NCBI GenBank assembly: GCA_947494335.1
Contig: CANLUT010000003.1
Coordinates: 62,001-126,000 of the forward strand
Direction of reading: 5' to 3'
DNA from: Oligoflexales bacterium
GTDB lineage: Bacteria; Bdellovibrionota_B; Oligoflexia; Oligoflexales; RGVZ01
Length of the DNA stretch: 64,000 nucleotides
Position 1 is the stretch's first letter; each line of letters starts with the position of its first letter. The notes beneath the pieces were generated by a model, which saw nothing but the letters and a program-made list of their open reading frames with translations, was not told the DNA's origin and did not search any database. Positions 19,930-41,231 of this stretch are shown here, piece by piece. The position numbers were made by a program, and so were the translations under genes.

Positions 19930-21840
19930 ATGGAAGAGCTTCTCAAAATTCCATCAACCAAGCAGGCCCCAGGTCTCGAGTATTTCGGGATGTTGGAAAA
20001 TGCTCCTATCAACGTCCTCTACTGCGACTTGAACATGACCATTCAATACGTCAATCCAAAAAGTCTTGAGACTCTGACATCAATCGAAAAATGGCTACCA
20101 GTTCCAGCAAAAAAGGTCCAGGGCAGTACAATTGACATCTTTCACAAACATCCGTTGCATCAGCGGAAGATGCTTGCTAATGACGAAAATCTTCCCCACA
20201 AAGCCGTGATAAACGTTGGTCCCGAAAAGCTTGAGTTGTTGGTGTCCCCAATTTACAACAACAAAAAAGAGTACTCGGGCATCATGGTCACTTGGGACAT
20301 AGTTACCCAGAGGATTTTGGATCAAGAAAACCTGGCGCGCATTTACTCCATGATGGAAAACGCTCCTGTTAACATCATGTACTGCGATCGCGATCTAAAT
20401 ATCCAGTACCTGAACCCCAAAAGCCGCGACACTCTCAGGATGATTGAGCGACATCTTCCAATTTCAGTGGATAAGGTGGTGGGCGCAAATATCGATGTTT
20501 TTCACAAAAATCCGGCACATCAAAGAAAGATCTTGGCAGACGACCGTAATCTCCCAATCCAAACGGTCATATCAGTCGGCCCAGAGAAGCTTGATCTCCT
20601 CGTCAATGCTATTTATGACACAAATAAGAATTTCATCGGGACCATGGTGACATGGGATGTAGTTACGAAAAAAATCGAAAACGAAATTGAACTGGCCCGC
20701 ATTTATTCCATGATGGAAAACGCGCCGATCAATATTATGTGTGCTGACTTGGATTATAAACTGCGTTACTTAAATCCGGCGTCCGTTAGAACGCTTCGTA
20801 CCTTGGAGAAATATCTTCCAAAGCCGGTTGATCAACTCGTTGGACAATCGATTGATATTTTCCATAGAAGTCCAGAAAATGCCCGCCGAATTACAAAAGA
20901 TGATAAGCAGTTACCATATGTGGCTAAAATTAAGTTAGGGCCTGAAACCTTGAAGCTGTTGGTCGCACCAATGTACGACAACAACAAATCCTATATCGGA
21001 CCAATGGTAACTTGGGAGGTTATCTCAGCTCAGATGACTCTTGTTTCGGAGATTACCGAAGCTAGTCGAATGTTATCCGCTGCTGCGGCTGAACTCAATG
21101 CGACTGCAAGCCAGATGACAACGAATGCTACAAAGTCGACAAAAGAAGCAAATCAAGTTGCTGGAGCCTCAGAACAAGTCTCTCGAGGTGTGCAGACCGT
21201 AGCGACCAATACGGAAGAGATGAGTGCATCAATTGCAGAGATAGCGCGTAACGCGAACGAGGCTTCTATGGCAGCCAACTCAACGGCCCGTCAATCTGAG
21301 GTGACAAATACCACCATTAACAAATTGGGTCAGTCCAGCTTGGAAATTGGAAATGTCATAAAAGTTATTTCGTCTATCGCACAGCAGACAAACCTTCTGG
21401 CACTCAACGCGACAATAGAAGCCGCTCGCGCGGGAGATGCGGGTCGCGGATTTGCAGTTGTTGCGAACGAGGTCAAGGAGCTTGCTAAGCAGACGGCCCA
21501 GGCGACAGAGGACATTACGAACAAAATTGGTGGCATTCAACGAGACACATCGACTGCTGTTGATGCAATTGGAAGTATCTCTGAGAGTATCCGTAGATTG
21601 AACGGAATTGCATCCGCCATTGCAGCCTCAGTGGAAGAGCAACAGGCAACAACTAACGAAGTAGCTCGCGTCGTTCAGGAGTCCTCTCGCGGCGTACAGT
21701 CCATCTCGGAAAGCGTCAAGGTAGTTTCACTTGCGTCAAGTGAAACTCAGATCGGCGCAGAGCAGGTCCTTCAGGCCGCCCGTTCATTGGGAGAGTTGTC
21801 AGAGAAGCTAGAGAGCTTGGTTAAAAAGATTCAGGTGTGA
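19930..21840 (+). CDS. Soluble methyl-accepting chemotaxis protein with three PAS repeats
   Basis: A 636-residue cytoplasmic chemoreceptor with no membrane segment or signal peptide. Three PAS-like units repeat with an exact 360-bp period (units begin at 19981, 20341 and 20701), each starting with a MENAP-type motif and ending with MVTW. Residues ~375-636 form the signalling coiled coil, with hairpin tip [20 protein letters not shown] followed by [18 protein letters not shown]. It should control a CheA kinase in response to an internal ligand, redox or energy cue; the PAS cofactor is unknown. The chemosensory operon 11 kb downstream is a candidate partner. A strong terminator follows. Confidence 0.93.
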
Positions 21841-32287: not shown

Positions 32288-32965
32288 ATGCAGAACGACT
32301 CTTCACTAATTTACTCAATTCGCGAACGGCCCCTGACAGTTGCGATAACGCTGTCAATCGTCGTGCATTTCATGACGGCTAACGCACTTAATATTCTGAC
32401 AACACGTCCGCAAAAGATTGACTTTCAGCCTGTCAAAGTTCGTATTGCGGAGCCTGTTCCGAAGGAAATCCCACCGCCCCCCAAGAAGAAGGAACCCCCA
32501 AAAAAACAGACGGCTGCACCCAACCAACAGGTTGCCCCTCAGGCCCCAGTGACCGATGTGCCTATCCAGGGTGTGACCAAGGATTCATTATCTACCGAAG
32601 GCACGATGGCCGCTCCCGTTGGTAACACTCTCATGGTGGAAGACAGCGGGAAAAGACTGAAGGACGTGGAGGCGTTGCGTGGCGATATGTCTGCGCCGGC
32701 AAAACTCATTGCAAGTACGATGGTGACACCTCCTTATACTGAGGAAGCATTGGACGCCCTGATTCAGGGCTCTTTCATTGTCGATGTTTACGTCGGTTTA
32801 GATGGAACGGTTCGAGAGGCGGAGCTCCGAAAAAAAATCGGTTATGGAATGGACGTACGAGTGATTGATGCAGTGAAGGGCTCAAAGTTTATTCCCAGAA
32901 AAAACAGATTCGGAGTGGATGAGGAAGGGTGGACGGAGCTCAAGTTTACGCTGGTTATACCATGA
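32288..32965 (+). CDS. TonB-like energy transducer
   Basis: A 225-residue protein. One N-terminal membrane helix (TVAITLSIVVHFMTANAL) is followed by a Pro/Lys-rich spacer (residues ~55-85, with PPPPKKKEPPKK) and a C-terminal TonB domain (residues ~140-225) with PPYTEEALDALIQGSFIVDV and YVGLDGTVREAEL. It would transmit the proton-motive force to TonB-dependent outer-membrane receptors. No exbB/exbD or receptor gene is adjacent. It precedes the chemosensory operon but is separated from it by a structured gap. Confidence 0.85.
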   Translation: MQNDSSLIYSIRERPLTVAITLSIVVHFMTANALNILTTRPQKIDFQPVKVRIAEPVPKEIPPPPKKKEPPKKQTAAPNQQVAPQAPVTDVPIQGVTKDSLSTEGTMAAPVGNTLMVEDSGKRLKDVEALRGDMSAPAKLIASTMVTPPYTEEALDALIQGSFIVDVYVGLDGTVREAELRKKIGYGMDVRVIDAVKGSKFIPRKNRFGVDEEGWTELKFTLVIP

Positions 32966-33136: not shown

Positions 33137-35824
33137 GTGAGCCAACTTGCCAAATTAAAAGTACTCATTGTCGATGACGAAAAAGAAATTGGGCAACTGA
33201 TCAAGGAAATCATAGACCCGCATTATGACGGTGTGCTTGCGTGCTCGGGCAAGGATGCTCTGAGTATTCTGAAAAAAGACGCGTCTTCAATGGTCTGCAT
33301 CGTCTCAGATTATAATATGCCGGACATGAATGGAATCCAGTTGAGACAGGCGTTCCCGGAACGTTGCATGGAAATTCCTTTCATTCTGCTGTCAGGCTAT
33401 ATTACCAAAGAGGATGCCCTAGCCGGCTTGGATGCAAAAATTTCGGCGATGATGCCAAAACCATTTGATCCAGCAGAGCTCATTGAGCTTGTGAAAAAGC
33501 ACGCTCAAGCGCGTGAATCAACGATTCGTGAGCGCGTTATGCTTGAGCAGATTTTTATAGAAGAGGCATCTTCAATCGTCGATGATCTTGAACCTCTAAT
33601 TATGTCGCTTGAGCAGCGTCCAAACGACATTGATACGATCAACACCATTTTTCGATTGGTCCATACAATTAAAGGCTCAAGCGGTGTCCTTGAGTCTTCC
33701 CATGTGCGCATGTATGTGCACAAATACGAAGATCTCCTCTCTAAAATGAAAAGCGGAGCCGTAAAAGTCACTCCGGATGTGGTGTCAATATTGCTTCAAG
33801 GTTTTGATGTTGTTCGTAAAATGATAAACGCGCTGAAGATTGGCGAAGAGTGGACCCAGGATGTTGAAAACCTGGCTAAAATCTTCGACTACAGTTCGAC
33901 AATAAGCGTCGCTGAGTCCCCTGAGCAGGTTGCCTCCGGGGCGATTGCAGTTCCAGCGACCGAAGTTTCCAAAGAATCAGTGAATGTTCCTACGATCATG
34001 CTTGATGAGTTTATGGAGCTTTCAGGTGAGATCACAGTTATCAGGAACATGGTGAATAAACTTGTCAAAGTGATCGAGAAGGAATCACCCAGTAACAAGA
34101 ATGTTCAGCATCTTGGCGAGCTTCTCGACGAAATGCATAAGATTAATTCTGGAATTCAGGGGCGATTAGTTGAAACCAGAAAGGTGCCACTTAGCAAGGT
34201 GTTTCGTCCGCTGCCAAGAACCGTAAGGGACACGGCGAAAAACTTGGGCAAAACAATTGATTTCAAGTTGGAGGGTGACCAGATACGTGTCGACTCGTCT
34301 TTGGCACAAGTGCTATCTGACTCGCTCATTCATATTGTTAGAAATTCAATCGATCACGGAATCGAAACGCGAGAAATGCGGATTCAGCGAAAAAAGAAGC
34401 CAGAAGGTAGCTTGACCATCAGAGCCTTCGAGCGTGGTGAGGAGGTTGTTGTAGCTATCCAAGATGATGGTGGAGGCCTTGATCCTGTCAAGATCAAAAA
34501 GAAAGCCGTTGAGAGAGGATTGTACTCCGCCAGTGACGTTGATCGCCTATCTTTAGCCAAGATTCATTCGTTGATATTTGAATCAGGTTTTTCCACTGCC
34601 AATCAGATCACAGATGTCTCAGGACGCGGTGTCGGAATGGATATGGTTCGATCGTCCGTCCAAAAGGTCAAAGGACGGGTGGAAATCGATTCAGAATTGG
34701 GATCTGGTACGACTTTTTATCTGCATTTACCGATTCCAAAATCAGTTTTGATCATCAATTCGCTCGTTGTGGAGACATGTGGACGGGATTTTGCGATTCC
34801 TCAGGATAGTGTTGCAAGGCTTCTAAGGCTGGACGGAAAAAAGATTAGACAGTTTATTAAGGAACTACAAGGGACTGCTGTTTTGGATTACGAGGGTGAG
34901 CTGATTCCGCTCGTTGATCTCGGTGAAGCGCTGAGCCTGAGAGAGGCGAATATAAAGCGTCTACTTGGAGAAGAGGTATTGAATATTCTCATAGCGCGAA
35001 CTGATGCGGCATACTTTGCTCTGTGCGTCGATCGCGTGCTCGACAGTGAGGAAATCGTTGTAAAAGTTGTTGGCAAACATATGGAGCGTCTTAAGGTATA
35101 CGCTGGCGCGACTTTTATGGGTGATGGAGGCGTTGGGCTCGTGCTCAATATCGACGGAATCGCGGAAGTTTCAGGTGTTACAAGCATCCGACAAGCCGCA
35201 GCTGACCAGGTGACCCTAGATCAGACCACAGAGATGCCTTCAAACTTAAAGGATGTCCTGCTTTTTGATTTGTGGTGCCACGGAGTATTTGCGATTCCGT
35301 TAACTGCAGTCCATCGACTCGAAGAAATTCAAAAATCATCGCTTCAGCAAGTTGGGGACCGAGGTGTCGTTATTTATCGCGATCAGGTCATGCCAATTGT
35401 GGATTTGACGGACGCCCTGGGTGTTAAGGTTCAACACGAAGAGGAGCGGTCAGATCAGGTAGCTATCCCTGTTGTTGTATCAAAAATCAATGAGCGCTAC
35501 GTTGGATTTGCGGTGCGCTCTATCGGAGACGTGGCGTCAATGCCGACAAGTATTGATATGCTTGTACGAGATAGAAAGCTGATCGAAGGATCATTTGAAG
35601 TGGACGGTCGTGTTGTAGCGTTGGTCGATGTTTTTGCAACGTTGGACGCGCAGGGCATACTGAAGGCGATCGATCCTGTCACCAATTTAAAAAATCTTTC
35701 GTACGGTGTACAAAACGATCCGGCAACTTCTACCCATAAGGCGTTAGCCGGTGATTTGGCTAAAATCGAAAAAAAGCCGGAAGAGTCCACAGCATTTGCG
35801 GGCGATGGATGGGGTCTTTTTTGA
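33137..35824 (+). CDS. cheA: Hybrid CheA-like histidine kinase, receiver domain first
   Basis: An 895-residue chemosensory kinase. Order: receiver (residues ~8-125; DD at 13-14, phospho-Asp58, Lys108), HPt (His176 in HTIKGSSG), dimerisation helices (~275-340), ATPase (N-box HIVRNSIDHGIE near 397, DDGGG near 442, GRGVGMDM near 496), then two CheW-like modules (~535-675 and ~706-848). There is no P2 domain for CheY docking. The start is GTG, set by GGGAGG at 33126-33131; an ATG at 33101 would lie in the leader helix and lacks a ribosome site. It opens the operon, 132 bp before the second cheA. Confidence 0.9.
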   Translation: MSQLAKLKVLIVDDEKEIGQLIKEIIDPHYDGVLACSGKDALSILKKDASSMVCIVSDYNMPDMNGIQLRQAFPERCMEIPFILLSGYITKEDALAGLDAKISAMMPKPFDPAELIELVKKHAQARESTIRERVMLEQIFIEEASSIVDDLEPLIMSLEQRPNDIDTINTIFRLVHTIKGSSGVLESSHVRMYVHKYEDLLSKMKSGAVKVTPDVVSILLQGFDVVRKMINALKIGEEWTQDVENLAKIFDYSSTISVAESPEQVASGAIAVPATEVSKESVNVPTIMLDEFMELSGEITVIRNMVNKLVKVIEKESPSNKNVQHLGELLDEMHKINSGIQGRLVETRKVPLSKVFRPLPRTVRDTAKNLGKTIDFKLEGDQIRVDSSLAQVLSDSLIHIVRNSIDHGIETREMRIQRKKKPEGSLTIRAFERGEEVVVAIQDDGGGLDPVKIKKKAVERGLYSASDVDRLSLAKIHSLIFESGFSTANQITDVSGRGVGMDMVRSSVQKVKGRVEIDSELGSGTTFYLHLPIPKSVLIINSLVVETCGRDFAIPQDSVARLLRLDGKKIRQFIKELQGTAVLDYEGELIPLVDLGEALSLREANIKRLLGEEVLNILIARTDAAYFALCVDRVLDSEEIVVKVVGKHMERLKVYAGATFMGDGGVGLVLNIDGIAEVSGVTSIRQAAADQVTLDQTTEMPSNLKDVLLFDLWCHGVFAIPLTAVHRLEEIQKSSLQQVGDRGVVIYRDQVMPIVDLTDALGVKVQHEEERSDQVAIPVVVSKINERYVGFAVRSIGDVASMPTSIDMLVRDRKLIEGSFEVDGRVVALVDVFATLDAQGILKAIDPVTNLKNLSYGVQNDPATSTHKALAGDLAKIEKKPEESTAFAGDGWGLF

Positions 35825-35956
35825 CCCAGTAGTGTCATCATTTGGTGACAAAAAAATGTCGTTAAAATGCCAAATATACTGAATTGACAGCCATTTCAGC
35901 GCGGCTTGATAATGTCTTAGGAAACTATTTTTTTTAGGGACCTTCAAGGTTCCGAC

Positions 35957-38713
35957 ATGAGCGAGGACTCTGTGGCCAGCATCCCTAAAGAGGCATTGGC
36001 GGAATACATCGGCGAAACGCGCGAAATGTGTCAGCGCATTTCAATCGGCATGGGTTTAGTTGAAAAGAATCAACATGATGACGAAACGCTGAACTCGATT
36101 TATCGTGACATGCATTCCATCAAAGGCGGATCTCATCTTTTTGGCTTTAAACGAATCGGTCAGCTTACTCATGCGATGGAAACGGCACTGGATCCTGTTC
36201 GTCATAAAGAGATTCTCCTCAATCCAAAATTAGTTGACGCTCTTTATCTGGGCTTGGACGCCGTCGCCAGAATCTTGTCGCTCATTGAGATGAACGGTGA
36301 TGATAGTCAGATGAGCTTGGATGAAATAGGTCCGGTAGTCCAAAAGATCGCAGACCTGACTTTTCAAGCTTTGAACTCTTCTCAAGCCACTGAAGGAAAA
36401 AACCATGACGAATCTGAGGTTTTGACAAACAGTATGCCCAAGCTTGATGACTCAATGGCACGAGACGAGCTGGAGAACGCTCCCAAGCTGATGGGCTCTA
36501 ACGTAGAAATAAAAATAAATGAAACCTCAAAAGACCGAAGAGAGCAGGTTTCAGTAAAGGATGAATTTAACCTGGATCCTAGTACGGTTCGGATTCCGGT
36601 CGGGCTTCTTGATAACTTGATGAACCTTGTTGGTGAGCTGGTTTTAGTCAGAAATCAAATGCTTCAATTTAGTCAAATTCAGCGGAACGGTGAGTTTCTG
36701 AAACTCTCCCAAACGCTCAGTGTTGTGACCTCGGAAATTCAGAATGATGTGATGAAAACAAGGATGCAGCCTATTGGTCCCTTTCTTTCGAAGTTTCATA
36801 GGCTAGTACGTGATTTGGCGCGCGATCTCGACAAGAACATAGATTTTAGAATTGAGGGGGCTGACACTGAGTTGGACAAGACTCTTATAGAGGCTGTCAA
36901 AGATCCGCTGACACACCTGATTCGTAACAGTATCGATCACGGAATTGAAACCGGCGCGGATCGCCAACGTTTAGGCAAGCATCCCGTCGGAATGGTCAAG
37001 ATCAAGTCTTACCATGAAGGTGGACACGTTATCATTGAGGTGAGTGACGATGGCTCGGGTCTTTCGCCAGTTAAAATAGCAAAGAAAGCCGTTGAACGTG
37101 GGCTTGTGCCAAGTGAGCAAGTTGGGAAAATGTCAGCTAATAGTATTCGGGCCCTAATATTTCTGCCAGGTTTTACGACGGCAGAATCAGTGACTGATAT
37201 TTCAGGTCGTGGCGTTGGCATGGATGTCGTCAAGACGAACATTGAGCGCATTGGTGGACATATCAATTTGGAAAGCACAGTCGGAGCTGGGACAACGGTG
37301 AGAATGAGTATTCCACTCACAATGGCTATTATTCCTGCTCTTATGGTGTCCTCATCAGGGCAGTCATACGCTATTCCACAGTCAAAGGTTATCGAGTTAG
37401 TTCGGATTGAAGATTCAGGTCGCGACGACCAGCGCATACAGTGGCTTCAAGGTCAGGCGATGATTCGCTTGCGAGGTAAGCTCTTGTCGGTAGTTGGTTT
37501 AAGCGCGACTCTTGCTGGGAGGCCCGCGTCCGACGCCCTTAAGGTGACTCGGTTGAATAATTTGGTGATTTTGAGAAGCGAAGGCCAATCGTTTGCCTTG
37601 GCGGTCGACGCGGTTTTGGATAATTCGGACATTGTCGTAAAGCCTCTGGCTCAAGTTGTAAAGAATGTCTCGGCGTACTCTGGGGCAACCGTGATGGGAG
37701 ATGGATCTGTGGTGTTGATCCTTGACGTTGACGGATTGTCCCGTTTGAGTTTGGTCGCAACCGTGGGTAAGCCTTCATCAGAGGACGATCCAAACCCTGT
37801 CGGGACGAGCATAAAACCTGACTCTGCTGAATATCTCCTCTTGGATCTTGGGGCTCCCGGATTATTTGCCGCTCCCTTGTGTTTAGTAAATCGGCTCGAG
37901 GTTTTTTCTCCGAGCGATGTTCAGTTTTCCGGTGACTTACCTGTCGTTCGCTATCGGGATACTCTGCTTCCGATTCTTTCGATTGCTGAAAGACTTGGGT
38001 TTACGCGTTTTAGTCCAAAAGACTTATTAGGATCGGACAAATTCAGCGTTATTGTCGTTAGTAAGTCCAATAGACTTTTTGGACTTGCAGTTAAGAAAAT
38101 TCTCGATGTGGTTTCAATAGATATGGATATTGACGGGGAGATATCCGATCGAAGTGGAATTCTCGGATCAGTCGTCTTCGGTAAAAATGTTATTTCGGTT
38201 ATCGACGTTTTGGGTGTTATCGATAGTTTAATACACGGCTTACCTACAAGGTTGGTGGATCGGGGCTCAGAGATTGCTCCGACTGCCACCATTTCAGCCA
38301 GCCCTAGCGCCCGAACACCGGATTCAAGGACGTTAAAGATTTTGTTAGCTGAAGACACGAGCTTCTTCCGTCGATATGTTTCAGCTTACCTTCGCTCTCT
38401 TGGTCATGAAGTTGTGGCGGCTACAAATGGAGACGATGCATTTAGACGTCTTGAAATGAGTCATCCATCAGAGTTTGACCTTGTATTGACAGATATTGAG
38501 ATGCCAATTCTTGATGGATTCTCGTTGATGCACAAGATTCGTATGCGACCAGAATTTTCAGGTATCCCGGTCATTGCATTGACAACGAAGTTTCACGACT
38601 CAGATATAAAAAAGGGTAAAGATGCGGGATTTTCTGCGTATCTTGAGAAGCTGAATGCTGAGCTTCTAGAGCAGACGATCAAGAAGTTATTTGATGTAAA
38701 GCAAGCGGTTTAA
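35957..38713 (+). CDS. cheA: Hybrid CheA-like histidine kinase, receiver domain last
   Basis: A 918-residue chemosensory kinase. Order: HPt (His53 in HSIKGGSH), dimerisation region (~215-280), ATPase (N-box HLIRNSIDHGIE near 320, DDGSG near 363, ISGRGVGMDVV), two CheW-like modules (~453-595 and ~623-757), and a C-terminal receiver (~793-915; AED pocket, phospho-Asp846 in LTDIEMP). P2 is missing. With the preceding kinase it forms a tandem pair with the receiver at opposite ends, so phosphotransfer may run within or between the two. The cheW gene follows after 14 bp. Confidence 0.92.
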   Translation: MSEDSVASIPKEALAEYIGETREMCQRISIGMGLVEKNQHDDETLNSIYRDMHSIKGGSHLFGFKRIGQLTHAMETALDPVRHKEILLNPKLVDALYLGLDAVARILSLIEMNGDDSQMSLDEIGPVVQKIADLTFQALNSSQATEGKNHDESEVLTNSMPKLDDSMARDELENAPKLMGSNVEIKINETSKDRREQVSVKDEFNLDPSTVRIPVGLLDNLMNLVGELVLVRNQMLQFSQIQRNGEFLKLSQTLSVVTSEIQNDVMKTRMQPIGPFLSKFHRLVRDLARDLDKNIDFRIEGADTELDKTLIEAVKDPLTHLIRNSIDHGIETGADRQRLGKHPVGMVKIKSYHEGGHVIIEVSDDGSGLSPVKIAKKAVERGLVPSEQVGKMSANSIRALIFLPGFTTAESVTDISGRGVGMDVVKTNIERIGGHINLESTVGAGTTVRMSIPLTMAIIPALMVSSSGQSYAIPQSKVIELVRIEDSGRDDQRIQWLQGQAMIRLRGKLLSVVGLSATLAGRPASDALKVTRLNNLVILRSEGQSFALAVDAVLDNSDIVVKPLAQVVKNVSAYSGATVMGDGSVVLILDVDGLSRLSLVATVGKPSSEDDPNPVGTSIKPDSAEYLLLDLGAPGLFAAPLCLVNRLEVFSPSDVQFSGDLPVVRYRDTLLPILSIAERLGFTRFSPKDLLGSDKFSVIVVSKSNRLFGLAVKKILDVVSIDMDIDGEISDRSGILGSVVFGKNVISVIDVLGVIDSLIHGLPTRLVDRGSEIAPTATISASPSARTPDSRTLKILLAEDTSFFRRYVSAYLRSLGHEVVAATNGDDAFRRLEMSHPSEFDLVLTDIEMPILDGFSLMHKIRMRPEFSGIPVIALTTKFHDSDIKKGKDAGFSAYLEKLNAELLEQTIKKLFDVKQAV

Positions 38714-38727
38714 ATTGGAGGTAGACA

Positions 38728-39207
38728 ATGCAGTATCAGACAGACATTGCGGCAACGGGCGGTGCAAATGTCCCCAAAATTTTGAGATTACAATACTCGA
38801 CGTTTTATGTGGCTGGCCGGATGTATGGCATTGATGTCAGTCGCGTACAGGAAGTTGTTAAGCCGATACCGATGACAAAAATTCCATTGGCAGAAAGTTT
38901 TGTGCACGGCTTGATAAATCTTCGGGGTCAGGTTGTGACTGCTGTCAGCATTCACGAGCTTTTTGGTCTCAAGGAAAAGGCTAAAGTCGACATGATGAAC
39001 GTCATCTGCAAAGTTGATGGTTTCCTTGTGTCTCTATTGGTGGATGAGATAGGGGACGTTATCGAGCTTGAGACAAAGAATTGTGAAGCTGTTCCGAACA
39101 CTATTTCTTCGGCTGTTAAGCAATACATGACCGGGGTTTACAAGGTCGCTGACGATCTGATGAGTGTGATTGATGTGGACAAGATCTTTAAAGTTCTAAA
39201 TGGCTAA
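38728..39207 (+). CDS. cheW: Chemotaxis adaptor CheW
   Basis: A 159-residue adaptor that couples receptors to CheA. It has the CheW core VAGRMYGIDVSRVQEVVKP, the conserved HGLINLRGQVVTAVSIHELF and a C-terminal VDKIFKVL. The ribosome site GGAGG precedes the ATG. It lies 14 bp after cheA and 21 bp before cheB. Confidence 0.94.
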   Translation: MQYQTDIAATGGANVPKILRLQYSTFYVAGRMYGIDVSRVQEVVKPIPMTKIPLAESFVHGLINLRGQVVTAVSIHELFGLKEKAKVDMMNVICKVDGFLVSLLVDEIGDVIELETKNCEAVPNTISSAVKQYMTGVYKVADDLMSVIDVDKIFKVLNG

Positions 39208-39228
39208 GCTGATTTTATTGGGGTTATT

Positions 39229-40344
39229 ATGCGACTACTTATTGTAGATGATTCCGTTGTGTTTCGTTCCCAGATTAGGACAGCGGTGGAGTCTTCTATT
39301 GCGGTAAACTCTATCGGCACTGCCGCCAACGGGAAAATCGCTCTTCAAAAGTTGCAGCAAGAGTCCTATGACGTGATGACTTTGGATATGGAAATGCCAG
39401 AGATGAATGGCATGGAGACCCTTAAGGAAATTAGGTCACGCGGAATTCCCATCAAGGTTGTGGTATTTGCGGCCCAAAATCTTCGTGGCGCGACGTCGGC
39501 GATGGAAGCTTTCAAGCTTGGAGCGATCGATGTAGTTTCAAAGCCGGATGGTTCTAACGAGTCTTTTGATATGGCGTTACAACATGTGCGCGATCAGTTA
39601 TTGCCGATTCTGAAGGAAGTGCATCAAAAGAGTGTGAAGGCGCAACCTAAGGCGCCGATAGCAGGATCGTCGGATAGGCATCCAGTTGCGGACGAAGTTA
39701 GCACACAAGTACCATCTGGTAATGCCGAGACGTCAAACTACCGAAAGGTTCTAGTTGAGACTTTTAGGCCAAAGATAGTTGTAGTTGGAAGCTCTACAGG
39801 CGGTCCAAATGCTCTGGAAACTTTATTTACAGGTATTCGTGCTCCTGTAACAGTGCCTATTTTGATTGTTCAACATATGCCACCTGTGTTTACCGCAAGT
39901 CTTGCGGCTCGACTTGGAGCGATCACGGGCCTTGATTCGTTTGAAGCAAAGCATGGAGAGCCAGTAGTGACAGGGCGAATTTATGTAGCGCCGGGTGATT
40001 ACCATATGGGACTTCTAAAATCTGGCGATGGCCTAATCATTAATTTGTCCCAAGGCGAGAAACGCTGCAATGTACGACCTGCTGTCGATGTGTTGTTTGA
40101 AGACGTTGCCAAGTGTATGCCTAACCAGGTGGGAGCGTTCGTATTAACTGGGATGGGTGAGGATGGAATGCTGGGGTGCAAGGCTATCAAGAACGCATTT
40201 GGAGCGGTCATGATCCAAGACAGAGAGACTTCGGTCGTTTGGGGGATGCCAGGTGCAGTGCACGCTGCTGGGGCGTTTGATCAAATGGGTAGCCTTCAGG
40301 ACTGCGCGCGAGTTCTGCAGGTTTGGTCAATGGGGGCAAGATGA
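39229..40344 (+). CDS. cheB: Chemoreceptor methylesterase CheB
   Basis: A 371-residue response regulator. The receiver (1-120) has VDDS and phospho-Asp53 in TLDMEMP; a Ser/Pro-rich linker follows; the esterase (~180-371) has the active Ser189 in GSSTGGPN, HMPPVFTASLA with the catalytic His, and GEDGMLG with the catalytic Asp. It removes methyl groups from chemoreceptors. Its TGA overlaps the cheR ATG by 4 bp. Confidence 0.96.
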   Translation: MRLLIVDDSVVFRSQIRTAVESSIAVNSIGTAANGKIALQKLQQESYDVMTLDMEMPEMNGMETLKEIRSRGIPIKVVVFAAQNLRGATSAMEAFKLGAIDVVSKPDGSNESFDMALQHVRDQLLPILKEVHQKSVKAQPKAPIAGSSDRHPVADEVSTQVPSGNAETSNYRKVLVETFRPKIVVVGSSTGGPNALETLFTGIRAPVTVPILIVQHMPPVFTASLAARLGAITGLDSFEAKHGEPVVTGRIYVAPGDYHMGLLKSGDGLIINLSQGEKRCNVRPAVDVLFEDVAKCMPNQVGAFVLTGMGEDGMLGCKAIKNAFGAVMIQDRETSVVWGMPGAVHAAGAFDQMGSLQDCARVLQVWSMGAR

Positions 40345-41231
40345 AGCTACAAAATGAATCAACAGTTACGGCTTTGTCTCCAGAGCAGATCAAATTTTTC
40401 GCCGACTATATTGAACAAAAGCTTGGAATAATCTACGCCAAAGATAATTACTATCAGCTTGAACGACGCTTAAGTGATATTGCTACGACGCTTGGCGTTG
40501 GGTCTGTCATTGAACTCTGGACCAAGGCGCAGACTGGCATTTCAGGTCAATTTCAGAGTCTTCTTCTTGATCTTTCTACTAACAACGAGACCTCTTTCTT
40601 TCGCGATCCAGGGTTATTTAAGGCAATAGAAGAGCGGATTCTCGTTGAGCCGCGTTTTGGCGGCGACAATCCTCTGCCTCTGAGAATTTGGTGCTGCGCA
40701 ACAAGTACTGGCCAGGAGGTTTACTCCATGGCCATATTATTGCATGCGTGGAAATTACAAAATCCCCGCCGCTCATTTTCTTTCTTGGCTACGGATTACT
40801 CGTTGCGTGTCCTGAAGCAGGCGGAAGAGGGAAAATACTCTCAGCTCGAAATTCAGCGGGGATTACCAGAGGCAATGATTAATCGCTTTTTTAAGCCAGA
40901 GAAGCATGCATCAAATCCAGCTGTCGCTACAGGAAGCTGGATCGTTACGGAAGAGCTCAAGAAAGGTATCACTTACAAGCAGCAAAACCTTCTCGATGAC
41001 TTTGGTGGCATTGGGCCTTTTGAAATCGTGCTATGTCGCAACGTGTTGATTTATCAAAACGTTGAAAATAAAAGACGCATAATTGCCGAAATTGCCCGCC
41101 GCCTTGTGCCCGGTGGATATTTGGTTCTGGGAGCAGCAGAAAGTCTCATGGGACTAAGCGAAGACTTTGAGATGCGTCAAATTGATCGGGCTGTCGTCTA
41201 TCAACGTAAGCAGGATTTGAAGACACGCTAA
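40341..41231 (+). CDS. cheR: Chemoreceptor methyltransferase CheR
   Basis: A 296-residue SAM-dependent methyltransferase that methylates receptor glutamates. The N-terminal helical domain contains TNNETSFFRD, the SAM site includes IRIWCCATSTGQEVYSMA (a CheR-type GCSTGEE variant with CATSTGQE), and CRNVLIYQ is typical. ATG at 40341 overlaps the cheB stop (ATGA), which is preferred to the upstream TTG at 40323. It is the last gene of the operon; no cheD or receptor gene follows. Confidence 0.95.
   Translation: MKLQNESTVTALSPEQIKFFADYIEQKLGIIYAKDNYYQLERRLSDIATTLGVGSVIELWTKAQTGISGQFQSLLLDLSTNNETSFFRDPGLFKAIEERILVEPRFGGDNPLPLRIWCCATSTGQEVYSMAILLHAWKLQNPRRSFSFLATDYSLRVLKQAEEGKYSQLEIQRGLPEAMINRFFKPEKHASNPAVATGSWIVTEELKKGITYKQQNLLDDFGGIGPFEIVLCRNVLIYQNVENKRRIIAEIARRLVPGGYLVLGAAESLMGLSEDFEMRQIDRAVVYQRKQDLKTR

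Follow-up and report, generated by a model that had tools for sequence, protein, structure and literature searches.

A 64,000-nucleotide stretch of DNA from an Oligoflexales bacterium, a member of the Bdellovibrionota (contig CANLUT010000003.1; hereafter the window), carries two adjacent genes for hybrid CheA kinases, designated cheA1 and cheA2, beside a single set of other chemotaxis genes, which raises the question whether two CheAs can serve one chemosensory system. A survey of 13,673 CheAs stated that there is always one CheA per system, the split CheA3/CheA4 of Rhodobacter being the unique exception (PMC10782961), and the pair breaks this rule. Over half of the surveyed CheAs were without P2, about one third had a receiver, several had it at the N-terminus, and about 8% had two CheW domains, as did 99% of class F5 (PMC10782961). 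A double CheW per CheA is thus not new. By their sequences, both kinases of the window are real and intact and every single feature has a precedent; the unusual and new element is the conserved pair of complete kinases, which is undescribed in the searchable literature. If phylum-wide, such a pair would alter how chemosensory systems are counted and classified. It would also offer a natural test of the role of the second CheW module, named as an open question in the CheA survey (PMC10782961).

Gene organisation and domain architecture

The locus spans positions 33137 to 41231 of the window, with the following features:

33137-35824, + strand: cheA1, REC-P1-P3-P4-CheW(W1)-CheW(W2), 895 aa from GTG 33137
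33161-33493, + strand: CheA1 N-terminal receiver, Asp70 at 33308-33310, of a separate receiver clade
33548-33835, + strand: CheA1 P1/Hpt, His188 at 33662-33664
33974-34159, + strand: divergent P3 dimerisation domain of CheA1, scoring 21.5 bits against a Pfam cut-off of 23
34175-34738, + strand: CheA1 P4 kinase domain, N/G1/F/G2 boxes intact
34763-35164, + strand: CheA1 W1 (P5), salt-bridge columns Arg573 and Glu598, the reverse of E38-R62 in CheW
35261-35641, + strand: CheA1 W2, Arg-Arg class
35884-35913, + strand: promoter-like site TTGACA-18-GATAAT in the cheA1-cheA2 gap, 11/12 consensus positions, a consensus match only
35957-38713, + strand: cheA2, P1-P3-P4-W1-W2-REC, 918 aa, F5 architecture
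35993-36268, + strand: CheA2 P1/Hpt, His53 at 36113-36115
36764-37321, + strand: CheA2 P4 kinase domain, motifs intact
37337-37741, + strand: CheA2 W1 (P5), Glu480-Arg506 pair intact
37838-38221, + strand: CheA2 W2, Arg-Arg class
38339-38662, + strand: CheA2 C-terminal receiver, Asp846 at 38492-38494, clustering with F5 CheA receivers
38728-39207, + strand: cheW (Pfam)
39229-40344, + strand: cheB, REC-methylesterase (Pfam)
40341-41231, + strand: cheR, ATG 40341 overlapping the cheB stop (ATGA)

The GTG start of cheA1 at 33137, behind GGGAGG, is preferable to the longer version of 907 aa from ATG 33101, from which CheA1 residues are numbered here. For cheR, the ORF caller had taken TTG 40323. 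The gene directly preceding cheA1, in the same orientation, encodes a protein with a TonB C-terminal domain (32288-32965).

CheA1 and CheA2 share 32% identity across an alignment of 737 columns. Pfam assigned to each one receiver, one Hpt, a P3, a HATPase and two CheW stretches, with the receiver N-terminal in CheA1 and C-terminal in CheA2, as originally predicted. The prediction that both lack P2 was borne out, Pfam giving no P2 match in either kinase; between P1 and P3, CheA1 has a short linker, and the linker of CheA2 (residues 144-210) is modelled with low confidence. Likewise, the phospho-His and ATP motifs described as intact were complete in both kinases (P1 His and N/G1/F/G2 boxes), as were the D-D/D/T-S/K residues of the receivers. 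The genes had been described as sharing an operon with single cheW, cheB and cheR genes. This gene set is present, but a single cheA1-cheA2 transcript is uncertain because the intergenic gap of 132 bp holds the promoter-like site.

CheW modules and receivers

All four CheW-like regions separately passed the curated Pfam cut-off in a scan of the window's own genome (62.5 and 60.1 bits for the CheA1 modules, 83.9 and 41.5 bits for those of CheA2), confirming two modules per kinase. AlphaFold predicted W2 of both kinases as a folded beta domain with a strand pattern resembling that of W1, in models whose domain arrangement is unreliable because they were built on only 21 sequences and reached pTM values of 0.40-0.45. 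By phmmer, CheA1 W2 matched the P5 of Thermotoga CheA (E 9e-6), CheA2 W2 just at E 0.4. The fold assignment of W2, based on Pfam scores, phmmer and the modelled strand pattern, and the kept motifs argue against a non-P5 fold of W2 and against loss of function in either kinase.

Phylogenetically, the W2 modules of CheA1, CheA2 and other F5 CheAs formed one group (support 83) that excluded P5/W1 (84) and free CheW (98). Since W2 groups apart and has its own signature, it is regarded as an old part of F5 kinases, not a spare P5. The description of two P5 modules per kinase was therefore too simple: both modules have the CheW fold, but W2 is a separate group from which the salt-bridge Glu is missing. 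W2 was also considered as a tethered free CheW, which was not supported, free CheW falling in a clade of its own with W2 elsewhere.

In Escherichia coli CheW, the Glu38-Arg62 salt bridge is required for signalling and dispensable for assembly (PMC3828127). The corresponding columns were canonical in W1 of CheA2 (32/32), in free CheW (54/64) and in ordinary P5 domains (27/41). None of 30 W1 modules of CheA1 had the canonical Glu-Arg; most paired Arg or Lys with Glu, Asp or Asn. Arg-Arg occupied the two columns in 30/31 and 31/32 W2 modules of the two kinases. With Arg-Arg fixed in W2 and the pair reversed in W1 of CheA1, charge swaps are directly testable. The reversed or broken salt bridge in the first module of CheA1 is undescribed in the searchable literature.

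The original prediction spoke of a mirrored receiver position. The receivers do stand at opposite ends, but in a tree of these short sequences, whose backbone was weak, those of CheA1 formed their own clade (92) and those of CheA2 joined other F5 CheA receivers (89). The mirrored position thus reflects separate acquisition, the two receivers falling in separate clades, and relocation of one receiver from end to end was rejected. The distance from the receiver Lys to the P1 His of CheA1 was 67-69 residues in all 29 homologs in which it was measurable; among CheA2 homologs, the P1-P4 distance varied widely. A single helix (residues 124-172) ran from the receiver into P1 in the AlphaFold model of CheA1. 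Constant spacing and a continuous helix in the model suggest a rigid joint between receiver and P1, which is undescribed in the searchable literature.

An N-terminal receiver followed by a long helix, as modelled for CheA1, is known from LvrB of Leptospira, which matched the CheA1 model in Foldseek (E 1e-13, TM about 0.15-0.33), and in other Rec-controlled histidine kinases. The receiver of LvrB drives a helix by its own kinase core, whereas the modelled helix of CheA1 leads into P1; the likeness is one of arrangement and does not imply descent. In Helicobacter and Campylobacter, CheA with a C-terminal receiver and CheV have a receiver that is likely a phosphate sink beside CheW-fold modules, as here, but with a single CheW module and no partner kinase.

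Distribution and phylogeny of the pair

The cheA1-cheA2 pair is old. It was present in 18 of 56 genomes, comprising the window's genome and relatives, in seven family-level groups, and occurred also in Bacteriovoracaceae and Halobacteriovorax MAGs, with a single set of cheW, cheB and cheR. The gap between the two genes was frequently 2-44 bp in relatives. Six genomes had the CheA2 type alone and six had CheA1 without an adjoining CheA2, in some cases at the end of a contig; pairing is therefore not a strict rule. Literature searches for a cheA pair in Bdellovibrionota yielded nothing, and the parts of the literature accessible for Geobacter and Myxococcus describe no tandem CheA pairs.

In a tree based on P4-W1-W2, CheA1 formed a clade restricted to Bdellovibrionota (support 100/100) and CheA2 a second clade (98/95), the two grouping with each other. 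A tree of 114 rows based on P4-W1 placed double-CheW CheAs, including those of Azospirillum, Microvirga and Rhodovastum, in one clade (99), with one long-branched row, Thermomicrobium, as the exception. In this tree CheA2 grouped with alphaproteobacterial F5-type CheAs (95), the reference F5 sequences being picked by architecture and genus and not by official class models. The two trees thus differ on whether the CheA1/CheA2 duplication is older than the divergence from other F5 kinases, and an AU test on this point gave p 0.33. The phylogeny proposed to classify the chemosensory type thus places CheA2 with F5-type kinases and CheA1 inside the double-CheW clade.

CheA2 corresponds to the F5-class CheAs of Azospirillum, Azorhizobium, Rhodospirillum centenum and Caulobacter (P1-P3-P4-CheW-CheW-REC): it has two CheW modules, a C-terminal receiver and no P2, groups with F5-type kinases and shares the neighbourhood cheA-cheW-(cheY)-cheB-cheR. 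It is 37% identical to the Azospirillum CheA over nearly the full length, and the Azospirillum operon cheA-cheW-cheY-cheB-cheR equals the block of the window plus cheY. CheA1 has the double CheW, but its receiver stands at the N-terminus and belongs to another receiver clade. Published F5 systems have a single CheA, and an N-terminal-receiver partner is described in none of them.

All 30 CheA1 homologs that span the P1 His have kept it, and the ATP boxes are present throughout except in the divergent L146. Two genomes (G032 and G029) have CheA2-type proteins reduced to P4-CheW-CheW, without P1 and receiver, while their CheA1 is complete; in G032, the G2 box of the truncated copy that adjoins CheA1 is broken, and the other reduced copies keep P4. 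In three genomes from which CheA2 is missing (G006, G007 and G009), the CheA1 receiver is without the Lys and other motif residues.

Separate Hpt-REC proteins are encoded near the reduced CheA2 types (L147 and L148, in G029 and G032), possibly forming a bipartite F5 kinase. A P1-less multi-CheW CheA-like ORF in Desulfobotulus (L178, G065:C10) indicates that reduced F5-type kinases may exist outside Bdellovibrionota. Candidate N-terminal-receiver CheAs in Desulfobacterales (L027-L032) were discarded, being separate cheY genes beside a single-CheW CheA and not fusions.

Receptor, output and proposed role

The cluster of relatives varies around the order cheA1-cheA2-cheW-(PAS receptor)-cheB-gene X-(cheY)-cheR-(Hpt-REC), whereas the cluster in the window is without receptor, gene X, cheY and Hpt-REC. 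The claim that receptor and cheY are absent held for the operon but not for the genome, in which a stand-alone CheY is encoded in the flagellar locus, behind flhA and genes for an SRP54-type GTPase (flhF-like), a ParA-type ATPase (flhG-like) and a sigma-70 factor (fliA-like), and the window itself has the receptor about 11 kb upstream of the pair:

19930-21840, + strand: soluble PAS-PAS-PAS chemoreceptor, ortholog of the in-cluster receptor of relatives, with Aer2-like heme-PAS repeats

The receptor is 55-65% identical to the cluster receptors of relatives and has no HAMP domain by Pfam. Its PAS repeats matched the heme-PAS of Pseudomonas Aer2 (E 2e-16). Conserved in all three repeats are the Trp of VTW, which we take to be the distal heme-site Trp, and the His of VFHKNP, in the column of H234. 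In Aer2, H234 is a heme ligand (PMC13401364). Judging from these residues, the protein is probably an oxygen or redox sensor of the Aer2 kind; the PAS repeats are like those of P. aeruginosa Aer2, but here three stand in tandem and the kinases are an F5-type pair.

Gene X (about 280-330 aa) lies between cheB and cheY or cheR in relatives (for example, L119:3244-4155, L118:15667-16659 and L131:13986-14831). Its product has N-terminal repeats of the kind LFGEYLxxKGLLxxExLLxALIEQ and a C-terminus that looks like an Hpt domain minus the His; it had no Pfam family above the cut-off and no match in the window's genome.

The pair occurred in 18/44 FliM-positive and 0/12 FliM-negative genomes (Fisher p 0.0056, a value that ignores kinship) and did not track PilT, which was absent above the cut-off in five genomes with the pair. 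A flagellar output is therefore favoured, also in view of the CheY in the flagellar locus, and an output through type IV pili is unlikely. The genome encodes a third intact CheA with a single CheW module and an adjoining cheW (C5:219675 region, L152:7028-10431), with no receptor, cheB or cheR nearby, and this kinase rather than the pair could be the flagellar CheA.

On balance, the pair probably forms an F5-type chemosensory system with two kinases, in which one array controls flagella. One system is favoured by the long-kept neighbourhood of the two genes, served by one adaptor and one adaptation set, by the reduction of CheA2 types in G032 and G029, where CheA1 is complete, and by the decay of the CheA1 receiver where CheA2 is absent. 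We infer co-assembly in one array, receivers serving as sink or gate, output through CheY and oxygen sensing. CheA2, which is slower-evolving, has the canonical Glu-Arg P5 and heads the cheA-cheW-cheB-cheR block, would be the F5 kinase proper. CheA1 would be a Bdellovibrionota-specific paralog that shares with CheA2 one cytoplasmic array, its CheW, CheB and CheR and its PAS receptor, and that contributes a P1-joined receiver at fixed spacing and an altered P5. The receptor would tune kinase activity via CheW and the P5/W2 modules; both kinases would autophosphorylate on P1, and phosphate would pass to the stand-alone CheY and to CheB. Both receivers may act as internal phosphate sinks or gates, and the state of the CheA1 receiver could swing or shield the attached P1, setting the phosphorylated lifetime of CheA1 or of the pair.

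It is conceivable, though rather unlikely, that two separate pathways are merely co-located, CheA2-cheW-cheB-cheR serving F5 chemotaxis and CheA1, transcribed apart, serving another output via its own receiver. The 132-bp gap with its 11/12 promoter-like site would fit such an arrangement, as would the 4.4 kb inserted between the two genes in G001, convergent or divergent gene order in G030, G037 and G053, and the retention of cheW, cheB, cheR and receptor in CheA1-only genomes; however, adjacency is kept in seven families, often with gaps of 2-44 bp, and there is only one cheW, cheB and cheR, CheA1 having no dedicated second cheW or receptor.

A more specific form of a shared array is offered tentatively and seems unlikely as it stands: in a mixed two-CheA array, the CheA1 P5 with its reversed Glu-Arg would dock where canonical P5 or CheW cannot, for instance at Arg-Arg W2, so that P5 and CheW would not simply alternate around the ring, and the P1-joined receiver would gate phosphate flow between the kinases.

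Still less probable is a division of labour in which the P1 of one protein serves chiefly as substrate of the other; CheA2 would then be the kinase, and CheA1 a regulated phosphodonor or phosphatase. Rhodobacter sphaeroides provides the published precedent (PMC10782961, PMC6829392): CheA3/CheA4, like the pair, are two CheAs in one operon serving a cytoplasmic receptor cluster, but each is without a function and together they make a split single kinase, one partner without P1 and the other without a working kinase domain. The reduced CheA2 types of G032 and G029, with P4 and two CheW modules in genomes that also encode a complete CheA1 and separate Hpt-REC proteins, resemble this state, yet the G2 box is broken in the truncated G032 copy that adjoins CheA1. 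The kinases of the window, unlike CheA3/CheA4, both have receivers and double CheW, and neither has lost P1 or any ATP box, which leaves no need for a split. It is highly improbable that CheA1 is a functionless duplicate in decay: it has a long stem branch, a sub-threshold P3 score and has lost the CheW-fold Arg in W1, but its P1 His, ATP boxes (in all but L146) and receiver-P1 spacing are conserved and the changes in the salt-bridge columns show a charge pattern instead of random decay.

Two further chemotaxis-related loci were noted in the genome. A fourth CheA-like protein, with a P1 without His and degraded kinase boxes (L151:8791-10632, G000:C5:140826 region), adjoins a receptor with a weak signalling domain and is possibly a structural pseudo-kinase. 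Elsewhere, a receiver-PilZ protein is encoded beside a CheV of CheW-REC type (L153:9174-11134, G000:C2:767185-769085), suggesting a link between c-di-GMP and chemotaxis.
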